A DNA stretch of 27,218 nt, from IMG/VR virus record IMGVR_UViG_3300025889_000783, positions 1 to 27,218 of that record; one strand, written 5' to 3'. The position numbers and the translations under genes were made by a program. Of this stretch, positions 3,047 through 26,173 are shown piece by piece. The notes under the pieces are model-generated. The model worked only from the letters and a program-made list of their open reading frames with translations, was not told the origin of the DNA and made no database searches. The stretch is from a virus. How positions within the stretch are numbered: position 1 is the stretch's first letter; each line of letters begins with the position of its first letter.

Positions 3047-3359
3047 TCTCAACCATCAAACCGAAGCAGAGTTCGCCGCACGTTTCTGGGCGAAGGTGCG
3101 CGAGGTGCGTCAGCAGTTTGAGGCTGCGGCACCTGGATCTCGTGAGAAACGTCTGTACGGTGAGAAGTTTGGCTACCTCATCTGGTGGTTGCACGGCAAG
3201 GTGACGAGCGGTGACATTACGAGCAACGCGGCGCGGCTGTCGTTCAACGCCGCGTATGGCCGTTCGCTCACCGCAGGGCAATGGAATACGTTCGTGACGG
3301 ACACGTTGATGCCGATCCGCGATAGGTATCAGGCGATGCTCGATCAGGGTGACATCTAA
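3036..3359 (+). CDS. Small alpha-helical hypothetical protein, TTG start
   Basis: A 107-residue mostly helical, charged protein (FWAKVREVRQQFEAAAPGSR near the N-terminus, then a W-L-H-G-K motif and a C-terminal DRYQAMLDQGDI). The start is TTG at 3036, overlapping the end of the preceding gene by 11 bases; the preceding gene's codons contain a GCGGAGG stretch that could serve as its ribosome site. The stop overlaps the next gene's ATG (TAATG). It belongs to the same compositional island. Function is not recognised; the position suggests a virion accessory protein or fiber chaperone. Confidence 0.55.
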   Translation: MAISLNHQTEAEFAARFWAKVREVRQQFEAAAPGSREKRLYGEKFGYLIWWLHGKVTSGDITSNAARLSFNAAYGRSLTAGQWNTFVTDTLMPIRDRYQAMLDQGDI

Positions 3360-4696
3360 TGGCGATCCAGTATTACACCTCGGCCGGAAACGGCACAGAC
3401 CCCACAGCAGGTTGGACGACAGGACACGCCACTTTAGCGGCGGCTCTTTCGGCGGCTAGTTCGGGCGACTCGGTATACATCGACATGGCGAATATCGCTT
3501 CCGGTGACTCTGGTGTAACTACCGCCACGACATGGACAGTCTCGGCCGGCGTAACGCTGCATGTCGGAACGCAAAATGGCGCGACTGATATTACGACCGG
3601 TTACATGGGCACGACATATTGGATCGGTCGATCTACGGCTGGCGCAAATATCACATTAAATACGGGGAAAGGGTGCAAGATCATCGGCGGACTGACACTC
3701 CGGGAGCATGGAGGCAATAGCCTTGTCGTGAACACTACTACGGGCAGCGGGTTTTTGTATGCAGACACGTTGACGCTTTGGCATAGTTCCACAACCGGAG
3801 GGGGCACCTCTAGGATTGGAGGGCAGCAAAACAACCAAACTCAAATCGAGACGCTAAACATAACATATGCTCGTACAAGCTCGACAATCAGTGAGTTTCA
3901 AGTCGCGGGAATTGTGCGGATTGGAGTCTTAACGCTGACCACGGGCGGCGCGACCGCCCCTTCGGGCGGCTGGATCAATGACCCGAATGTCTCCGCTGCG
4001 GCCAATCTGACGGTGAATGGTGGTGACATTTCTGCGCTTGGCAGTGGCGCGACCATTATTGGTGATTGCGGTAGTTCGCCGCTAACGTGCCGACTTGAGA
4101 ACACAATTCTCCCCGCAAGTTTTGTCGGCGTGACCACGCAGACAGGTGGCCTCGCTGGCGGTGAGTTGTTCTTGACCGATTGCTACGAGAGCACCGTTGG
4201 TGCGGTTCCTTTCGGCTACTTTAACGACTCTGGTCAGGTGATTGTTGATACCGGAATTTTCTTGACGGCAGGCATTTCGTCATCTTCGTGGAAAATCTCT
4301 ACTACAAGTAGATGTACTGCGCGCGAACCATTTTGGACGCCATTCATTTTTGAATACCAAGCGGCGGCTACGGTCACGCCTGAGTTTGAAGTGCTGCGTG
4401 AGGGCAATTCTTCTGCATACACAGACGCGGAATTCTGGATGGAGTCGCTTACTAAGCAGACATCCTCATCCGTCGAAACCACTTTTGAATCCACGCAAGG
4501 AACGGGGACGAATATAACAACAGGGGTCGGCACCTCATCATGGACGGTTAGCGGATCGCCGGGCGATTCTGGTGACTGGTCAGGCATTCTCTCCCAAGGA
4601 TCGACAGTGCTAGCAGAAGATGGCTTCGTTAAGAGCCGTATCTGCGCGGCTGTTGCCTCTTCCACGATTTACGTTGATCCGGGGCCGGTAGGCTAA
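3359..4696 (+). CDS. Beta-rich (predicted beta-helix) virion-associated protein
   Basis: A 445-residue protein dominated by short Thr/Ser/Gly/Val-rich strands. It opens MAIQYYTSAGNGTDPTAGW, then AHATLAAALSAASSGDSVYID-like sequence (in fact GHATLAAALSAASSGDSVYID over residues about 22-42), a pattern typical of the first turn of right-handed parallel beta-helix proteins. Repeated I-x-G-x-L-T-L and N-x-T-L units follow, and the C-terminus (about 355-445) looks like a separate domain. No enzymatic motif was seen. GC content is clearly lower than that of the neighbours, with AT-ending codons throughout, indicating horizontal acquisition. The ATG overlaps the upstream stop and the stop overlaps the next ATG. 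Likely a surface-exposed fiber, spike or decoration protein; the precise role is unknown. Confidence 0.6.
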   Translation: MAIQYYTSAGNGTDPTAGWTTGHATLAAALSAASSGDSVYIDMANIASGDSGVTTATTWTVSAGVTLHVGTQNGATDITTGYMGTTYWIGRSTAGANITLNTGKGCKIIGGLTLREHGGNSLVVNTTTGSGFLYADTLTLWHSSTTGGGTSRIGGQQNNQTQIETLNITYARTSSTISEFQVAGIVRIGVLTLTTGGATAPSGGWINDPNVSAAANLTVNGGDISALGSGATIIGDCGSSPLTCRLENTILPASFVGVTTQTGGLAGGELFLTDCYESTVGAVPFGYFNDSGQVIVDTGIFLTAGISSSSWKISTTSRCTAREPFWTPFIFEYQAAATVTPEFEVLREGNSSAYTDAEFWMESLTKQTSSSVETTFESTQGTGTNITTGVGTSSWTVSGSPGDSGDWSGILSQGSTVLAEDGFVKSRICAAVASSTIYVDPGPVG

Positions 4697-5568
4697 TGGC
4701 TGCAACCTCACGCGCATCACCAGGAGGCGGATGGAGTGTAGGAAGTGACTCCGATACGTTCTCCCGTGCCGTTCCCGGTGCCGAGTGGGAAGTGCAACAG
4801 TCCGCCGCCGGCCCGACTGACCTCGCCCTAGCTGACTTGTCGCACGGCCACACGCTCGACCACCTCGACCTCACGCAAACCCACGTCCTGGCCCCGGCCG
4901 ACTTGTCGCACGGCCACACGCTCGACAACCTCGACCTCACGCAAACCCACGCCCTGACCGTCGCCGATATATTGCACGCGCACGGCTTGGACAACCTCGG
5001 CCTCACGCAAGCCCACGTGCTCGCCCTAGCCGACGCGACGCACGGCCACACGCTCGACAACCTCGGCCTCACGCAAGCCCACGTGCTCGCCCTGGCCGAG
5101 CTATTGCACGGCCACACGCTCGACAACCTCGGCCTCACCGGCGCCGGCGATCTCGCCATCGCAGACGCGACGCACGGCCACGCGCTCGACAACCTCGCGC
5201 TCACGCAAGCCCACGTCCTCGCCCTGGCCGAGCTATTGCACGCGCACGCCGCCGACAACCTCGTGCTCGCCGGCGGGAGCTCACTAACGGTTGCCGACAT
5301 CGCGCACGGCCACATCGCCGACAACCTCGCCCTCGGTCAAGTCCACGTCCTCGCGCTCGAGGACGCCTTGCACGCGCACCTCGCCGACGGCCTCGCGCTG
5401 TCGCAATTGCACGTGCTCGTCATATCCGAGGCGGCGCACGCGCACCTACTCGACAACGTCGCCCTCGGCTTGGGCGGCACCGTGCCGCCGCGGCATGTCC
5501 TCGTCGTGCGCGGCGAATCGCGCACGCTCGTCGTCATGCCCAAGTCACCCACGCGCATCATCCACTAA
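4696..5568 (+). CDS. Histidine-rich tandem-repeat protein (ten 22-residue repeats)
   Basis: A 290-residue protein. After a 42-residue N-terminal segment come ten consecutive 22-residue units (residues 43-262), each approximating LALAD-x-x-HGHTLDNLxLTQAHV. Every unit has H-x-H at positions 8-10 and D-N at 13-14; most also have a third His at position 21. A 28-residue C-terminal tail (VPPRHVLVVRGESRTLVVMP) follows. The regular hydrophobic spacing suggests an elongated solenoid or fiber-shaft structure, and the aligned histidines could bind metal. Both ideas are inference. The first 40 codons share the composition of the preceding island; the repeats share that of the main phage backbone, so the junction lies inside the gene. 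Confidence 0.75.
   Translation: MAATSRASPGGGWSVGSDSDTFSRAVPGAEWEVQQSAAGPTDLALADLSHGHTLDHLDLTQTHVLAPADLSHGHTLDNLDLTQTHALTVADILHAHGLDNLGLTQAHVLALADATHGHTLDNLGLTQAHVLALAELLHGHTLDNLGLTGAGDLAIADATHGHALDNLALTQAHVLALAELLHAHAADNLVLAGGSSLTVADIAHGHIADNLALGQVHVLALEDALHAHLADGLALSQLHVLVISEAAHAHLLDNVALGLGGTVPPRHVLVVRGESRTLVVMPKSPTRIIH
4822..5481 (+). repeat. In-frame tandem repeat, 10 units of 66 bp
   Basis: Ten 66-bp units encode the 22-residue histidine repeats. The first five or six are the most alike at DNA level, sharing blocks such as CACGGCCACACGCTCGACAA; the last four have diverged. This gradient suggests unit duplication concentrated at the 5' end, and the copy number may vary between relatives. 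Confidence 0.85.
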
Positions 5569-5585: not shown

Positions 5586-5849
5586 ATGAAAATCACCGCC
5601 ACCGCCAATTTCAAGCACGGCCGTTTCGCCTTTGCCAAGGGCGCCGCGTATGACGTGCCCGACCGTTTCGCCGGCCTTTTCCTCGGCAACGGATGGGCGA
5701 TCGAGGCGGGCGACGACGCGCCATGTATGCCCGTCGGCATCGCCGAGCTCGGCGCCAATGCGCCCGTCGGCGCGCTGCCCTCGGTCGACCGCGCCACGCT
5801 CACCGTCGAATCGGTCAACCACGCCGGCGCCAACAGTAACGCCGGCTAA
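5586..5849 (+). CDS. Small phage hypothetical protein
   Basis: An 87-residue protein starting MKITATANFKHGRFAFAKG and running through YDVPDRFAGLFLGNGWAIEAGD. The N-terminal half has the strand-turn-strand, then 'x-LFxGNGWAxEA' look common in short phage head or neck proteins. The C-terminal half is Ala/Val-rich and low in complexity. It lies between the repeat protein and two other small structural genes. No function is assigned. Confidence 0.6.
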   Translation: MKITATANFKHGRFAFAKGAAYDVPDRFAGLFLGNGWAIEAGDDAPCMPVGIAELGANAPVGALPSVDRATLTVESVNHAGANSNAG

Positions 5850-5875: not shown

Positions 5876-6277
5876 ATGGCGAAACGATGCAATCCCACCC
5901 TCCTCGACAAGATGCTCGACGCACTCAAAACCGGCTATTCGGGATTCGGCCCGGTCGATAAACAAGTCGCCTGTTCAGCCGAGCCCACGACATTCGCCGA
6001 GGCCAATGCCACGTATGCGCTCGCCGACGTGGCACTCTCGGGAACCGACTTCACGATCGCCAACGGCGACGGCGCCGGCAACACGCCCCGCAAAGCCACC
6101 GTCGGCGCCAAGTCGGGCGTCACGGTCGATACCAACGGCACCGCCACGCACGTCGCACTCATCGATACCGCGAATTCGCTTTTGCTGGAAGTCACCACAT
6201 GCACGAGCCAAGCTCTCACCGCAGGCAACACGGTGAACTTCCCCGCGTGGGATATCGAAATCGGCGCGCCGACCTAA
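5876..6277 (+). CDS. Small beta-rich structural-type hypothetical protein
   Basis: A 133-residue protein (MAKRCNPTLLDKMLDALKTG at the start). The C-terminal two thirds carry repeated TFAEANATYALADVALSGTDFTIANGDG-type strands and end in FPAWDIEIGAP, a beta-sandwich-like pattern found in short phage structural proteins. An AAGGA ribosome site precedes the ATG (about 5866-5870). It directly precedes the fiber-tail adaptor-like gene. Likely a virion protein; the role is unknown. Confidence 0.6.
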   Translation: MAKRCNPTLLDKMLDALKTGYSGFGPVDKQVACSAEPTTFAEANATYALADVALSGTDFTIANGDGAGNTPRKATVGAKSGVTVDTNGTATHVALIDTANSLLLEVTTCTSQALTAGNTVNFPAWDIEIGAPT

Positions 6278-6281
6278 TGCC

Positions 6282-6782
6282 ATGACGGCCGGCTTTTACA
6301 TCGCCGACGACCAAGTCGACGAGATCATCAAAGATCCGGCCGACGACTTGCCGTATGCGTTGGCGTTCTACGATTGGCTGCGCGGCTCGGATCAATACTG
6401 GTCGCATCGGCGCATCGTCAAGCCGGGCGAGACATACACGCCGGCCGCGGCCGCGTTGAACGGCTACCGCTACCGATGCAAAAAAGGCGGCCTCACCGGC
6501 AACGCGGCGCCCACATGGCCGACCACCGGCTCGGCCGATATCACCGACGGCGGCGTGACTTGGGTATTAATCGGCGCCGAGGACACGCTCGCCACCGTAA
6601 GCGTCACCCCTGAGTCGGGACTCACCGCCGACTCGCCGGAACTCGACGAAACCGGCACGCGCGCGCGGTTCAACCTGTCGGGCGGCACCGCCGGCCGGGC
6701 TTACCTCGTGACGGTCGAAGTCGCCACGACGCAGAGCAAGACCAAGCAAACGACGTTCCGCGTGCGGATGCGAGAATCATAA
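6282..6782 (+). CDS. Phage fiber-tail adaptor-like protein with an inserted domain
   Basis: A 166-residue protein. Residues 1-38 (IIKDPADDLPYALAFYDWLRG) and 101-166 (DTLATVSVTPESGLTADS to the SGGTAGRAYLVTVEVATTQ and TFRVRM strands) together match the small all-beta adaptor proteins found between neck and tail genes in many phages. Between them, residues about 40-100 form an extra module with GYRYRC, PTWPTT and DGGVTWVLIG. That signature is a small aromatic-rich domain usually seen at the ends of fiber proteins. The domain interrupts the adaptor exactly at the WLRGSD/DTLATV junction. The gene abuts the tail terminator gene with no gap. Confidence 0.6.
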   Translation: MTAGFYIADDQVDEIIKDPADDLPYALAFYDWLRGSDQYWSHRRIVKPGETYTPAAAALNGYRYRCKKGGLTGNAAPTWPTTGSADITDGGVTWVLIGAEDTLATVSVTPESGLTADSPELDETGTRARFNLSGGTAGRAYLVTVEVATTQSKTKQTTFRVRMRES

Positions 6783-7229
6783 ATGGCGCACGTTCGCACA
6801 CAAATCCGCGACGCGCTGGCGCTCCTCCTCGCCGGCCTCACCACGACGGCCGATCGCGTTTTCGTCTCGCGCGTCTCGCCCATCCCGCAAGACGACTTGC
6901 CCGCACTCGTGGTCAATGTCGACGAAGAAGAAATCGAACTCGCCACCGCCTCGACGGCGCCGACGATTTCGCGCGGCCTCACCATCCGCGTCGCCGCTCT
7001 CACGCGCCTCGTCGACGGGCTCGACGACGAGCTCGACGCCATGACGCTCGAGCTCGAGCTCGCGATCGCCGGCGACGACACGCTCGCCGGCCTGCTCAAT
7101 GAGCCCATGATCCTCACCGGCCTCGAGGTAGAACGCAGCACCGAGGGCGACGCGCCCATCGGCCGAATCACGCTCACCTACGCAACACGCTACGAAACCA
7201 CCACCTCGGCGCCCGACGTCGCCCTTTAA
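6783..7229 (+). CDS. Tail terminator-like protein
   Basis: A 148-residue protein starting MAHVRTQIRDALALLLAGL, followed by a strand (RVFVSRVSPIPQDDLPALVVNVDEEE region), an amphipathic helical segment rich in Asp and Leu, and a C-terminal strand pair (TGLEVERSTEGDAPIGRITLTYATRYET). This is the layout of lambda gpU-like or DUF3168-like tail terminators, which stop tube polymerisation. The position immediately before the tail tube gene matches that role. The start is one base after the preceding stop. Confidence 0.7.
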   Translation: MAHVRTQIRDALALLLAGLTTTADRVFVSRVSPIPQDDLPALVVNVDEEEIELATASTAPTISRGLTIRVAALTRLVDGLDDELDAMTLELELAIAGDDTLAGLLNEPMILTGLEVERSTEGDAPIGRITLTYATRYETTTSAPDVAL

Positions 7230-7241
7230 GGAGTAACCGCC

Positions 7242-7889
7242 ATGCCCTCTCTTTCCAAATGGGTCAAAGTCAACATGAAGCTCGGCACCCTCGGGACCGC
7301 CGTACCGATCAGCGGCATCACGCTCGCGTCGCCGGCGGTGGTCAGTTACACCGGGACCGATCCGACGGACGGCAACTACCTCGCCATGACCTCGATTCAG
7401 GGCATGGACGCCATCGCCGATCGCATTTTCCGAGCCGATAACACCAACGGCGCCGGCGACACCACCGAGCTCGAGGGCGTCGATTCGACCGCCTTTGACG
7501 CCTTCGTGTCGGGCAACTTTCAGCCGATCACCTTTGGCAACACCCTGCAAACCATCATCGACCCCGGCGCCGGCGGCGGCGTGTTCGATTTCATCGATAC
7601 GTCCGTCGTCCATAAGGGCATCAAAACACAGATCCCCAACATGGCCGACCCCGTGATTTTTAACATGCGATCGCAATGGGATCCGGGCGACGCCGCGCTC
7701 GCCGCCCTCGCGGCCGCTTCCGAGGCGCAAACCTTGCGCGCATTGCTGCTCACCTTCGGGAACGGCTACAAAACGCTCGCCCTCGGCTACGTCGGCGCGA
7801 CCCTCGTGCCAACCGGCTCCGTCGGCACGTTGGTCGAAACGCCCGTCGTGTTCACCGCCGCCGGCCTCATCACCAACTACACCACATGA
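7242..7889 (+). CDS. Major tail tube protein
   Basis: A 215-residue protein beginning MPSLSKWVKVNMKLG. The middle (MTSIQGMDAIADRIFRADN and FDFIDTSVVHKGIKTQI) and the small C-terminal domain (GYKTLALGYVGATLVPTGSVGTLVETPVVFTAAGLI) resemble siphovirus tail tube subunits, which form stacked hexameric rings. A GGAGTAACCGCC leader just before the ATG provides a good ribosome site, as expected for a highly expressed subunit. The order terminator, tube, chaperones, tape measure is canonical. Confidence 0.75.
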   Translation: MPSLSKWVKVNMKLGTLGTAVPISGITLASPAVVSYTGTDPTDGNYLAMTSIQGMDAIADRIFRADNTNGAGDTTELEGVDSTAFDAFVSGNFQPITFGNTLQTIIDPGAGGGVFDFIDTSVVHKGIKTQIPNMADPVIFNMRSQWDPGDAALAALAAASEAQTLRALLLTFGNGYKTLALGYVGATLVPTGSVGTLVETPVVFTAAGLITNYTT

Positions 7890-8505: not shown

Positions 8506-10676
8506 GTGAGCCCGTCATCGCCCTAACGGCCGCCGACCGCACGGCGGCCGCCTTTGCCAGCGTCACAAAACGATTCGACGGCCTGCAATCCAAAGCGTCG
8601 GCCTTGTCGGCGCCCTTTGCCAAGCTCAACGGCGCGCTCGTGGCGTTGGGGGCGATCGGCGCAGTTGCGGCACTCAAGGGCGCCGTCGACAGCGCCGACG
8701 CGCTGGCGAAGCTATCACAGCGCGCCGCGGTATCGGTCGAAGCACTCTCAACGCTGCAATTCGCCGCCTCACTCGCCGACACGGACGTCAAACAACTCGC
8801 CGACGGCCTGCGTCAATTGAACGTCCGCATGGCCGACGCCCAACGCGGCACCGGCGAGGGCCTCGGCGCCTTTAAGGCCCTCAACCTCGAGCTCGAGTCG
8901 ACGCCCGGCATACTGCGCCCCACCGAGGACGTGCTCCTCGACATCGCCGACCGATTCGCCGGATTCGCCGACGGCGCAAACAAAACCGCCCTGGCCGTGA
9001 AGATTTTCGGCGACGCCGGCGCGAACCTCGTGCCGTTCCTCAATCAAGGCCGCGCCGGCATACAAGCACTCCGCGAGGAGGCCGAGCGCCTCGGCCTCAA
9101 GCTCGGCACCGACGTCGCCCGCGACGCCGAGCGATTCAATGACAATTTGAGCACCTTGGGCCGCTCAGTGTCGGCGCTTGGCAAGTCGATCGCCGAAAAA
9201 TTCCTACCGCCGCTCGTCCAGATCACCGACCAGATGCGCCTCGCCGCGGAAAAGGGCGGGCTATGGGCCGCGGCAATGGCGGGCGTGCGCGAATCGTTCG
9301 CGCAACTCTTCCTCGCACAAAGCACGGTCGCCGGCGCCGGCGGCACCATCGACACCATCAACGCCGCCATCATCGAGCAAATCCAGCTCATCGAGCGGCT
9401 CGAAACCACCGAGGCACGCCGCGGCACCCGCGGCGCCCTCAATCGCCCGCGCCAAATTCAAGCCGCCAAGGCCGAGCTCGAGCGGCTCAAACAAGAGTCG
9501 ATCAAGGCGCAAATCCTCGCCCAATTCGATCGGCCCGGCGGGCTCAATGAGGGCGTCACCAAACCTGCGGCGCCGGGGCTCGCCAATCCCAACGACAGCG
9601 AAGGCAAAGCCTCGGCCGCCTTCCTCGACGGGCTCAAGAAAAAAATTCTTGCGCTCGAGGAGAATGAGTACGCCGTACTGCGCCTCGAGGCCGCACAAAA
9701 GAAAGTCGCCGAAAGCGCCGAGCCGCTCATCCAACAACTCGAGCGCGAAACCCGCTTCCGGGCCGAGCTCAAGGAAGGGCAAGAGCGCGACGCCAAAGCG
9801 GCCGAGGCGGAAATGGCCCGCCGCATCGGCCTCGTCAACGGCGTCGCCGATTATGTCGAGCAACTCGAGATCGAGGCGCGCATGCTCGGCCTCACCGCCG
9901 AAAATCGGCTCGTCGGCATTCAACTCCTCAAGCTCGAGGAGGCCGGCATCGCCAAGACGAGCGCCGAATATGCCGCGGCCGCCGAACGCATCGAAGAAGC
10001 CGTCGCCAAAGTCGCCGGCGCCAAACTGTTCACCGACACGCGCTCGCCCCTCGAAACCGTGCGCCAAGAAATCGAGCGTATCCGCGACCTGTACGTCAAA
10101 GGCGCCATCGACGCCGATACATTCGAGCGCGCAATCGCCAAGCTAAACGAAGAATTCACCAAACAAGCCACCGCCGGCAACAAAGCCAAATCGGCCGCCG
10201 AGGAACTCGGGCTTACGTTCTCCTCGGCATTCGAGGACGCCATCGTCGGCGGTAACAAACTATCGGACGTGCTCAAGGGCCTCGAAAAAGACCTCGTGCG
10301 GCTCGTATTGCGCAAAAACGTCACCGAACCGCTCGCCGATAGTCTCGGCTCACTGTTCAAACCGTCCGGCAAAGACGGCGGCGGCGGCCTGGGCGGGCTC
10401 ATCCAAACCGGCGCCAGCTTTCTCACCAACTTTTTCAAGGCATCCGGCGGCCCCGTCAACGCCGGGCAAACCTACCTCGTCGGCGAGCAAGGGCCCGAAC
10501 TATTCACGCCGCCGCGCGCCGGCAACATCACGCCTAACCACATGCTCGGGCGCACGAGCTCGCGCCCGATCAACATCACGATCAACATGCCCGCCAACGC
10601 CAATCGCGACACCGCCATGCAAGCCGCGGCGCGCGTCGGACAAGCGGCACAACTGGCACTAAGGCGCAACGGATGA
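8502..10676 (+). CDS. Tail tape measure protein
   Basis: A 724-residue protein. The N-terminus (MSEPVIALTAADRTAAAFAS) leads to a hydrophobic helix at about 43-60 (NGALVALGAIGAVAALKG). A long Ala/Glu/Lys-rich coiled-coil region occupies most of the body. The C-terminus has GQTYLVGEQGPELFTPPRAG, the motif found near the end of many siphovirus tape measures. At roughly 0.15 nm per residue it would specify a tail of about 110 nm. The start at 8502 is set by ATGA overlap with the frameshifted chaperone stop. No lytic domain was seen. Confidence 0.9.
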   Translation: MSEPVIALTAADRTAAAFASVTKRFDGLQSKASALSAPFAKLNGALVALGAIGAVAALKGAVDSADALAKLSQRAAVSVEALSTLQFAASLADTDVKQLADGLRQLNVRMADAQRGTGEGLGAFKALNLELESTPGILRPTEDVLLDIADRFAGFADGANKTALAVKIFGDAGANLVPFLNQGRAGIQALREEAERLGLKLGTDVARDAERFNDNLSTLGRSVSALGKSIAEKFLPPLVQITDQMRLAAEKGGLWAAAMAGVRESFAQLFLAQSTVAGAGGTIDTINAAIIEQIQLIERLETTEARRGTRGALNRPRQIQAAKAELERLKQESIKAQILAQFDRPGGLNEGVTKPAAPGLANPNDSEGKASAAFLDGLKKKILALEENEYAVLRLEAAQKKVAESAEPLIQQLERETRFRAELKEGQERDAKAAEAEMARRIGLVNGVADYVEQLEIEARMLGLTAENRLVGIQLLKLEEAGIAKTSAEYAAAAERIEEAVAKVAGAKLFTDTRSPLETVRQEIERIRDLYVKGAIDADTFERAIAKLNEEFTKQATAGNKAKSAAEELGLTFSSAFEDAIVGGNKLSDVLKGLEKDLVRLVLRKNVTEPLADSLGSLFKPSGKDGGGGLGGLIQTGASFLTNFFKASGGPVNAGQTYLVGEQGPELFTPPRAGNITPNHMLGRTSSRPINITINMPANANRDTAMQAAARVGQAAQLALRRNG

Positions 10677-22197: not shown

Positions 22198-22260
22198 ATA
22201 GCGCATTTCTGGCCGCGTGTACGAGGCATTAATAGCGCATTTCTGGCCGCGTGTACGAGG
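22198..22260. repeat. 34-bp-period direct repeat upstream of the XRE regulator
   Basis: A 29-bp sequence at 22198-22226 recurs without change at 22232-22260, offset 34 bp; similarity continues for several bases beyond each copy. It fills the gap between the two leftward regulator genes. It could be a binding site for a regulator or a recent tandem duplication; the sequence cannot tell which. Confidence 0.85.
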
Positions 22261-22262
22261 AA

Positions 22263-22709
22263 TTAGTCATCCGCGCCGGCTTTTTCTGGCTTGGCGGATC
22301 CCGGTAGACGGCCGGCGGCCCGGTAGGCGCGCGCACGTCGGGCGCGTACGGACAGCGTCGACAGTACGCGGCGTTGATCGTCAGGGAGGAGGGCACGATA
22401 GTCCTCAATGAGCTCGCGCGGAATATCGGCCGGGAGCGGCTCATCGCCGCCGATGCGATCCATCCAGCCGGGCGCCTTGCCGAAATGGTACTCGAGCGCG
22501 CGCGCGAGTCGGTCGCCGATGTTGCGCCGGCTGGCCTCCTGCGACGACGTGATCCGATACAGGCTCACCGGCGACGCCAGATTGAGCCGCCGCGCGACCT
22601 CGGCCACGTTGCCGCCGCATTCTTCACGAAGTAACCGATCGTATTGGATAGCTCGAACTCGATGGATTGCTAACGTCGGCACGGTCAAGGCCCCCGGTGA
22701 AAATGACAC
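22263..22709 (-). CDS. HTH repressor-like protein (CI position)
   Basis: A 148-residue protein. The N-terminal half has GGNVAEVARRLNLASPVSLY, an HTH, followed by ASRRNIGDRLARALEYHFGK and APGWMD, a signature common in phage repressor N-terminal domains. The C-terminal part is basic (VRARRARAYRAAGR) with no peptidase motif. It is divergent from the Cro/YdaS-like gene with operators O3 and O4 between them, the classic CI-Cro arrangement. The GTG at 22709 gives 148 residues; a GTG at 22682 is an alternative start preceded by GGGGG. Confidence 0.7.
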   Translation of the reverse strand: MSFSPGALTVPTLAIHRVRAIQYDRLLREECGGNVAEVARRLNLASPVSLYRITSSQEASRRNIGDRLARALEYHFGKAPGWMDRIGGDEPLPADIPRELIEDYRALLPDDQRRVLSTLSVRARRARAYRAAGRLPGSAKPEKAGADD

Positions 22710-25856: not shown

Positions 25857-26173
25857 CCAAGCCTCGCGACCGTTCGCCCTATCGTGTGACAGGTATGACG
25901 GGCACGCTCGCGCTCCTGTCACGCGCTAACCCCCAGATTTACAACGCATGTGACGGGTGTGACGGGTGTGACGGGCTCGGCGCCTATATGCATGCGCGTG
26001 TGCGTGTGCGTGCGTGTGCGCGTGCGTGCGCGCGTGCATGCGCCGGTTATCTATTTATACCTGTAACACCTGTCACACCCTCACCAAACACAAAACAATC
26101 AAACGCTTGTCCTGTGACGGGTAGCGTGACACGTGTGACGGGCTCAACCGATCGGGGAGACGATGCAAATTGA
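25853..26173 (+). CDS. Uncertain small frame across the iteron region
   Basis: A 106-residue frame starting ATGA-coupled to the primase. It stays open because the 9-bp iterons are a multiple of three; the translation gives CDGCDGCDG and VTP/VTG runs and an Arg/Ala/Cys stretch from the alternating tract. It has no recognised domain. It is more likely a by-product of the repeats than a gene, but coupling to the primase leaves the possibility open. Confidence 0.25.
   Translation: MTKPRDRSPYRVTGMTGTLALLSRANPQIYNACDGCDGCDGLGAYMHARVRVRACARACARACAGYLFIPVTPVTPSPNTKQSNACPVTGSVTRVTGSTDRGDDAN
25885..26142. repeat. Candidate replication origin: 9-bp iterons around an alternating purine-pyrimidine tract
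   Basis: TGTGACGGG occurs at 25949-25957, 25958-25966, 25967-25975, 26113-26121 and 26134-26142. Variants are at 25885-25893 (TGTGACAGG) and 25894-25902 (TATGACGGG). Inverted variants occur at 25915-25923, 26060-26068 and 26069-26077 (CCTGT[A/C]ACA type). Between them is the alternating tract, followed by a short A/T-rich patch (26047-26059 and 26086-26104). Iterons, a melting-prone patch and an adjacent primase-helicase gene fit a phage origin; function is inferred. Confidence 0.55.
25985..26043. other. 59-bp perfectly alternating purine-pyrimidine tract
   Basis: Every base from 25985 to 26043 alternates pyrimidine-purine, mostly GC and GT/TG steps (ATGCATGCG at one end, GTGCATGCGC at the other). 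Such tracts can adopt Z-DNA under negative supercoiling. It lies in the middle of the iteron region, where a supercoil-sensitive element could help initiate or regulate replication. Confidence 0.8.

Follow-up and report, generated by a model that had tools for sequence, protein, structure and literature searches.

A 22-residue H-x-H repeat protein and its linked partner in a tailed phage: a probable shaft of a virion adhesion fibre

Results

Gene organisation of the locus

The window, that is, the whole stretch of DNA analysed here, is a virus record from IMG/VR, 27,218 bp long. It contains a structural cluster of tailed-phage type, comprising the genes of an HK97-type capsid protein (46-957), an Hc1-like connector (2536-2811), a tail terminator (6783-7229), a tail tube (7242-7889) and a DUF2460 protein (at 10673). 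Judged from their sequences, other ORFs of the window probably encode a tape-measure-like, a tail-tip-like and an integrase-like protein. The repeat gene (4696-5568, plus strand) encodes 290 aa plus stop. It is preceded on the same strand by the gene of a 445-aa protein (3359-4696), whose stop codon overlaps the repeat gene's start codon (TAATG), and is followed, also on the plus strand, by the genes of a small 87-aa protein (5586-5849), of a 133-aa protein that turned out to be its near-obligate partner (5876-6277) and of a protein ending in a C-terminal Gp77 domain, known from the fibre-tail adaptor of phage GP4 (6282-6782). A homologue of the 445-aa protein (35% identical) is encoded directly upstream of the repeat gene in one relative (L114), and the product of 3359-4696 is likely the head or receptor-side partner; head and shaft would be split into two genes in the window and fused elsewhere. 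In relatives, the 87-aa gene often lies directly upstream of the partner gene (L009, L107, L109, L115, L131, L147). A 231-aa antisense ORF (4629-5324) was not taken as a gene, being presumably a shadow of codon periodicity.

Three further features of the window were observed. The gene between capsid and connector (1003-2535) encodes an N-terminal methyltransferase domain and has a weak C-terminal match to glycosyltransferase-9; L008 (59%) and L038 (39%) have homologues in the neighbourhood of repeat genes, and its product possibly modifies virion glycans. A 34-bp sequence occurs in two head-to-tail copies (22198-22265, 97% matching). At 25949-26043, TGTGACGGG is repeated three times exactly, followed by G/T-rich repeats of 12-16 bp in short tandem arrays.

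The 22-residue units

Residues 41-260 of the repeat protein (4816-5475) form ten units of 22 aa (66 bp) with the consensus L-x-[VI]-x-D-A-x-H-[AG]-H-x-A-D-N-[VL]-x-L-T-Q-x-H-x. The H-x-H motifs start at residues 50, 72, 94, 116, 138, 160, 182, 204, 226 and 248, so that the spacing of 22 aa (66 bp) holds for all ten motifs of the ORF, as the earlier note had proposed, with zero exceptions. In 20,000 shuffles at best four H-x-H fell in register, compared with the ten seen. A third His, 11 residues past the second, is present in seven of the ten units (missing from units 5, 7 and 10), hence in most of them, as had been claimed. The impression that DNA conservation is strongest in the first units also holds: units 1, 2, 4, 5 and 6 are the most alike (54-57 of 66 bases in the best pairs, 82-86%), and identity falls to 37-47 of 66 (56-71%) in pairs involving units 8-10. 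TRF likewise detected periods of 66, 132 and 198 bp. In total, the protein contains 30 His in 290 aa.

About 40 residues precede the array, and no receptor domain can be recognised in the protein. The array is followed by a C-terminal tail (5476-5565) in which a pattern R-x-L-V-V-R-x-E-x-R-x-L-V-V can be made out by eye and which, likewise by eye, resembles the tails of Microcystis phage Mae-JY22 and of a prophage in a betaproteobacterial MAG. Short R-x-L-x-I-x-x-E pseudo-repeats, e.g., AETRALAIAAEVRALTIH, are shared by the post-array tails of the window protein, L009 and L146 (7516-8736); a tail of this kind is a possible anchoring or capping element. Podovirus-like relatives (L109 8324-9523, L113 8773-9501, L098 8520-10382, and L103) end, behind the repeats, in a different domain that is conserved among them, TGxxxSVxDLxxxYYGGLSGL...DHQRxYWxxQTGL.

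A repeat family of environmental viruses

Searches of Pfam, PHROG and NCBIfam with the repeat protein gave no usable match, and scattered PHROG matches, e.g., to 'HNH endonuclease', were taken as repeat or composition matches. A leucine-rich repeat identity suggested by a PDB sequence match (E 0.0017) was dismissed as low-complexity leucine spacing; it was gone with a profile of 35 sequences. Using tblastn, one relative was found among 50,697 isolate phages, namely Mae-JY22 (38% identity over 96%). Scans of viral contigs gave 7 and then 147 relatives, the best 80 of which were taken forward. The comparison set comprises 77 distinct repeat proteins with 833 units, nearly all from metagenomic viruses, plus the one isolate. 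The repeat family is real, yet it has no name in Pfam and NCBIfam.

The 833 units were picked by H-x-H, and therefore H0 and H2 stand at 100% by selection. On the left side of the motif the conserved columns are L at -7 (90%), D at -3 (68%) and A at -2 (66%), and on the right side A/G/S at +1 (84%), A at +4 (75%), D/E at +5 (82%) and L at +9 (83%); in the region of the third His, Q at +11 reaches 56% and H at +13 42%. Unit spacing is overwhelmingly 22 across the family, with 20 and 23-26 also occurring. Nearly all length changes (59/62) fall within positions 10-14, between the fixed leucines +9 and -7, at the T-Q-x-H turn. The repeat proteins differ much in their N-terminal regions: Laminin_G_3 (LamG, lectin-like) was recognised in 7 of 52, and a carbohydrate-binding and a deacetylase domain once each. 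Scans of 84,980 prokaryote species genomes and of plasmids for the repeat, both with short exact peptide patterns and not exhaustive, gave zero matches; a partner-based scan of prokaryote genomes, also with short exact peptide patterns and not exhaustive, yielded four loci (in MAGs of Betaproteobacteria, Rubrivivax and Zixibacteria, and in Bellilinea).

The number of H-x-H copies per array, which the earlier note had suggested may expand and contract, ranges from 3 to 27 among the 77 proteins (median 11). Two close relatives, L011 and L012, share ~92% identity over 1,070 bp that take in most of the array and the downstream flank, and 87-89% ahead of this stretch; the gaps between their arrays total 198 bp, exactly three units. 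Unit number therefore changes between close relatives, which supports that suggestion.

Replaceability of the histidine columns

Since collecting arrays by H-x-H is circular, an independent collection of 36 repeat ORFs was assembled via the partner gene. Most of these arrays keep H-x-H, which is absent from nine (five distinct groups) with the rest of the unit intact. The motif is replaced by I-x-V in L098, L099, L100 and L143, by H-x-T in L103/L104 and, separately, in L113, by L-x-T in L109 and by S-x-Q in L137; the readable units of the Bellilinea prophage array have Q-x-Q. Among single broken units within H-x-H arrays, H-x-Q is the commonest form (34/57). The third His is kept in less than half of the family units. 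It is independent of H-x-H, because it goes with Q11 (found in 342 of the 374 units that have H13) and is still there in arrays devoid of H-x-H.

Besides His, the H-x-H columns thus admit Gln, Thr, Ser and aliphatic residues, and therefore look structural and exchangeable. Such replaceability would fit a side-chain ladder or a core position better than obligatory metal ligands, and stacked or buried positions of this kind would be expected in a repetitive beta structure. The metal binding put forward in the earlier note is left in part: it survives the refutation proposed there, namely that no homologue keeps H-x-H, since most homologues do, and metal at the H-x-H of the His versions is possible by analogy with gp37 and the pyocin fibres, while the replacements and the broken units weaken it and argue that metal is not a family-wide requirement.

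Predicted fold of the repeat protein

AlphaFold2 (AF2), run as a monomer with 35 in-register sequences, modelled the protein at medium confidence as an all-beta solenoid, with a pTM of 0.72 and pLDDT mostly 74-89 across the repeats; AF2 readily makes this fold from repeats. Turns were modelled at the H-x-H corner and at T-Q-x, and the indel sites at positions 10-14 agree with the modelled turn; a description of the unit as one long strand, from position 7 to position 17 (7-17), was given up, since the indels fall at positions 10-14. Structural matches of the model were weak and generic (best PDB E 2.7e-3, TM <=0.43). The proposal of an elongated repeat protein of a phage fibre gains support from the predicted whisker fold of the partner, the gp77-type adaptor and the lectin-like heads in relatives.

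The partner gene and the adaptor

The partner (5876-6277) was found by searching the relatives with the window proteins, and it recurs far above the other neighbours. It was located at 62 loci, 18 times downstream of the repeat gene within 62-394 nt and 44 times upstream. An HMM search found it at every one of the 22 repeat loci flanked by 4 kb or more on each side. In the reverse direction, using an HMM with the H-x-H columns masked, a repeat ORF was found at 19 of the 21 full-flank partner loci; one of the two exceptions, L117, contains at least one degenerate unit, LAIEDAAIAVGSSTLSL. Mae-JY22 is the only isolate with the partner apart from Roseobacter phage CRP-6, whose diverged version lies between the portal and 'tail fiber' genes. 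In L118 the gene of a YadA-head repeat protein (8594-10555) separates the partner gene from the repeat gene.

AF2 modelled the partner confidently (pLDDT 94.7, pTM 0.86). Foldseek placed the Sf14 neck and the Bas63 connector on top (9c39_K and 9mt4_K; prob 1.00, TM 0.60/0.72), followed by tail fibres of Agrobacterium phage 7-7-1 and a GP4 fibre/adaptor entry. The 9c39_K chain is Sf14 gp31, which together with gp30 forms the neck whiskers, attached via the adaptor gp37 (PMC11821841). A profile search of the partner against the PDB gave no sequence match, and its HMM had no match in Sf14; the likeness to a neck whisker is therefore a fold-level lead.

The protein encoded by 6282-6782 matches PF23148 with 52.8 bits (curated cut-off 27, 5.9e-14) and the GP4 structure 8jou_D with E 3e-8. 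According to the Gp77 HMM, such a gene adjoins 19 of 76 repeat loci, many of which lie on truncated contigs. A gp77-type gene follows the partner gene in Mae-JY22 and, judged from gene order and sequence, in the betaproteobacterial MAG prophage, and the module order of the two is the same. Genes of beta-helix or YadA-head proteins lie inside the module of some relatives, a beta-helix one in Mae-JY22. Across different architectures the module sits between capsid/portal and tail genes: straight after the major capsid gene in L098, L109 and L113, and after the portal gene in CRP-6 and L146.

Discussion

We consider it probable, with a confidence of roughly two in three, that the repeat protein forms the elongated, beta-structured shaft of an adhesion fibre at the neck or tail of the virion, docked by the partner, with its length set by the number of units and with a ladder that is not defined by metal. 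The anatomy of the repeats, the family, the linkage with the partner, the homology of the adaptor, the change in copy number and the replaceability of His are shown by computation, and the place in the virion, the order of docking, the shape of the rod and the role of the ladder are inferred. The 22-residue units would stack into a beta-rich rod. The receptor-facing part would be lectin-like or beta-helical, a domain that some relatives carry fused to the N-terminus and that in the window is probably supplied by the translationally coupled gene 3359-4696. The rod would be docked via the 133-aa whisker-like partner and, in a subset of phages including that of the window, also via the GP4-gp77-type adaptor, and it would lengthen or shorten in evolution as whole units are gained or lost. 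The H-x-H columns would represent a side-chain ladder or core position in the stack, usually His and tolerating Gln, Thr or aliphatic residues; His versions may bind metal or respond to pH, metal not being what defines the shaft. Several points speak against this reading: the repeat model is of medium confidence and its fold matches are weak, the partner resembles gp31 in structure only, gp77 was found at only about a quarter of the repeat loci, only a minority of the repeat proteins has recognised lectin-like domains, and that of the window has no receptor domain that can be recognised. A search for virion proteomics or microscopy of family members found none.

A metal-stabilised trimeric fibre of the kind of T4 gp37, the R-pyocin fibres and the P2 spikes, in which three wound chains would hold iron or another metal on the threefold axis at each H-x-H, up to ten metals in all, seems to us unlikely, if well worth considering. 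The solved H-x-H sites of T4 gp37, P2 gpV and the pyocin fibres bind Fe (PMC6116203), and for Alteromonas phage R22Y gp12, with four H-x-H 22 residues apart, an AF2 trimer with docked iron has been published (PMC11705849). H-x-H is moreover the majority state, both in the 833 units collected by it and in most partner-ascertained arrays, and the aliphatic replacements suggest an inward-facing site. However, homologous arrays next to this partner gene have I-x-V, L-x-T, H-x-T, S-x-Q or Q-x-Q in place of H-x-H, broken units are most often H-x-Q, and the repeat is not related in sequence to any of the solved H-x-H fibres, its HMM also missing the R22Y region. A fibre or decoration of the head (capsid) instead of the neck or tail appears rather improbable. 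The position of the module directly after the major capsid gene in several relatives and stray weak matches of the partner to head-protein and Hoc-like PHROGs favour it, but the best structural matches of the partner are neck/connector and tail-fibre proteins, the gp77 adaptor adjoins, and the CRP-6 and L146 modules follow the portal. We give hardly any credence to a protein outside the virion, such as a secreted or intracellular metal buffer or an immunity/moron protein; the richness in His and the absence of structural annotation in databases would suit it, but the gene sits in structural operons of unrelated phages, is linked to a virion-type partner and an adaptor, and has lectin-like N-terminal fusions in relatives.

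The preferred shaft reading can be compared with several known systems. The repeat array resembles the T4 gp37 needle, the R-pyocin fibre shaft and P2 gpV in having H-x-H in what would be a phage adhesion component. It differs from them in its ten in-register copies with D-A / A-D-N landmarks and in lacking detectable homology: the 35-sequence profile had no match in the PDB at E<=10, including the solved H-x-H fibres. Unlike fibres with H-x-H as an obligatory ligand, this family can replace the motif by Q, T, I, V or L. R22Y gp12 (L090 5949-7994) was considered as a homologue on account of its identical 22-residue H-x-H spacing, a relation that neither sequence nor HMM supports, and the common spacing may be convergent; its H-x-H copies are followed by I-x-D-I-x-G-L. 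The partner shares its predicted fold with the neck-whisker protein gp31 of Sf14 and its Bas63 counterpart, but has no sequence similarity to Sf14 gp31; the Sf14 whiskers consist of gp30 and gp31, and a search of a stretch of Sf14 revealed no shaft of 22-aa repeats. The 6282-6782 protein, like GP4 gp77, carries the PF23148 domain, also encoded beside the Mae-JY22 repeat gene and others, but fused behind an extra N-terminal part of ~90 residues; most gp77-bearing isolates (mycobacterio- and Gordonia phages) had no match in the repeat search. Right-handed parallel beta-helix tailspikes are similar in the generic coil-like AF2 model, and such a protein occurs in the same module in Mae-JY22, but the fold matches are weak and the repeat has strict 22-residue units and a polar ladder.

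Taken further, and only tentatively, the data may point to an unnamed, near-obligate two-gene adhesion module, a whisker-fold dock plus a 22-residue-repeat rod, found in viruses with differing capsid and tail sets, with an exchangeable His/Gln/aliphatic ladder and a length tuned by duplication, common among environmental viruses and almost absent from cultured phages. If this is true, His-rich members would line up as many as ~27 H-x-H pairs in one dimension, a row that could take up metal or react to pH. Adhesion parts set the host range of phages, and most environmental ones are without a cultured model. A recurrent rod-plus-dock module would now be named, with the partner gene as its marker and Mae-JY22 as the one isolate for study. 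The occurrence of His in some ladders and of Gln, Thr or aliphatic residues in others, all in one gene slot, would constitute a natural experiment, by which the rule that H-x-H means iron in phage fibres becomes testable.
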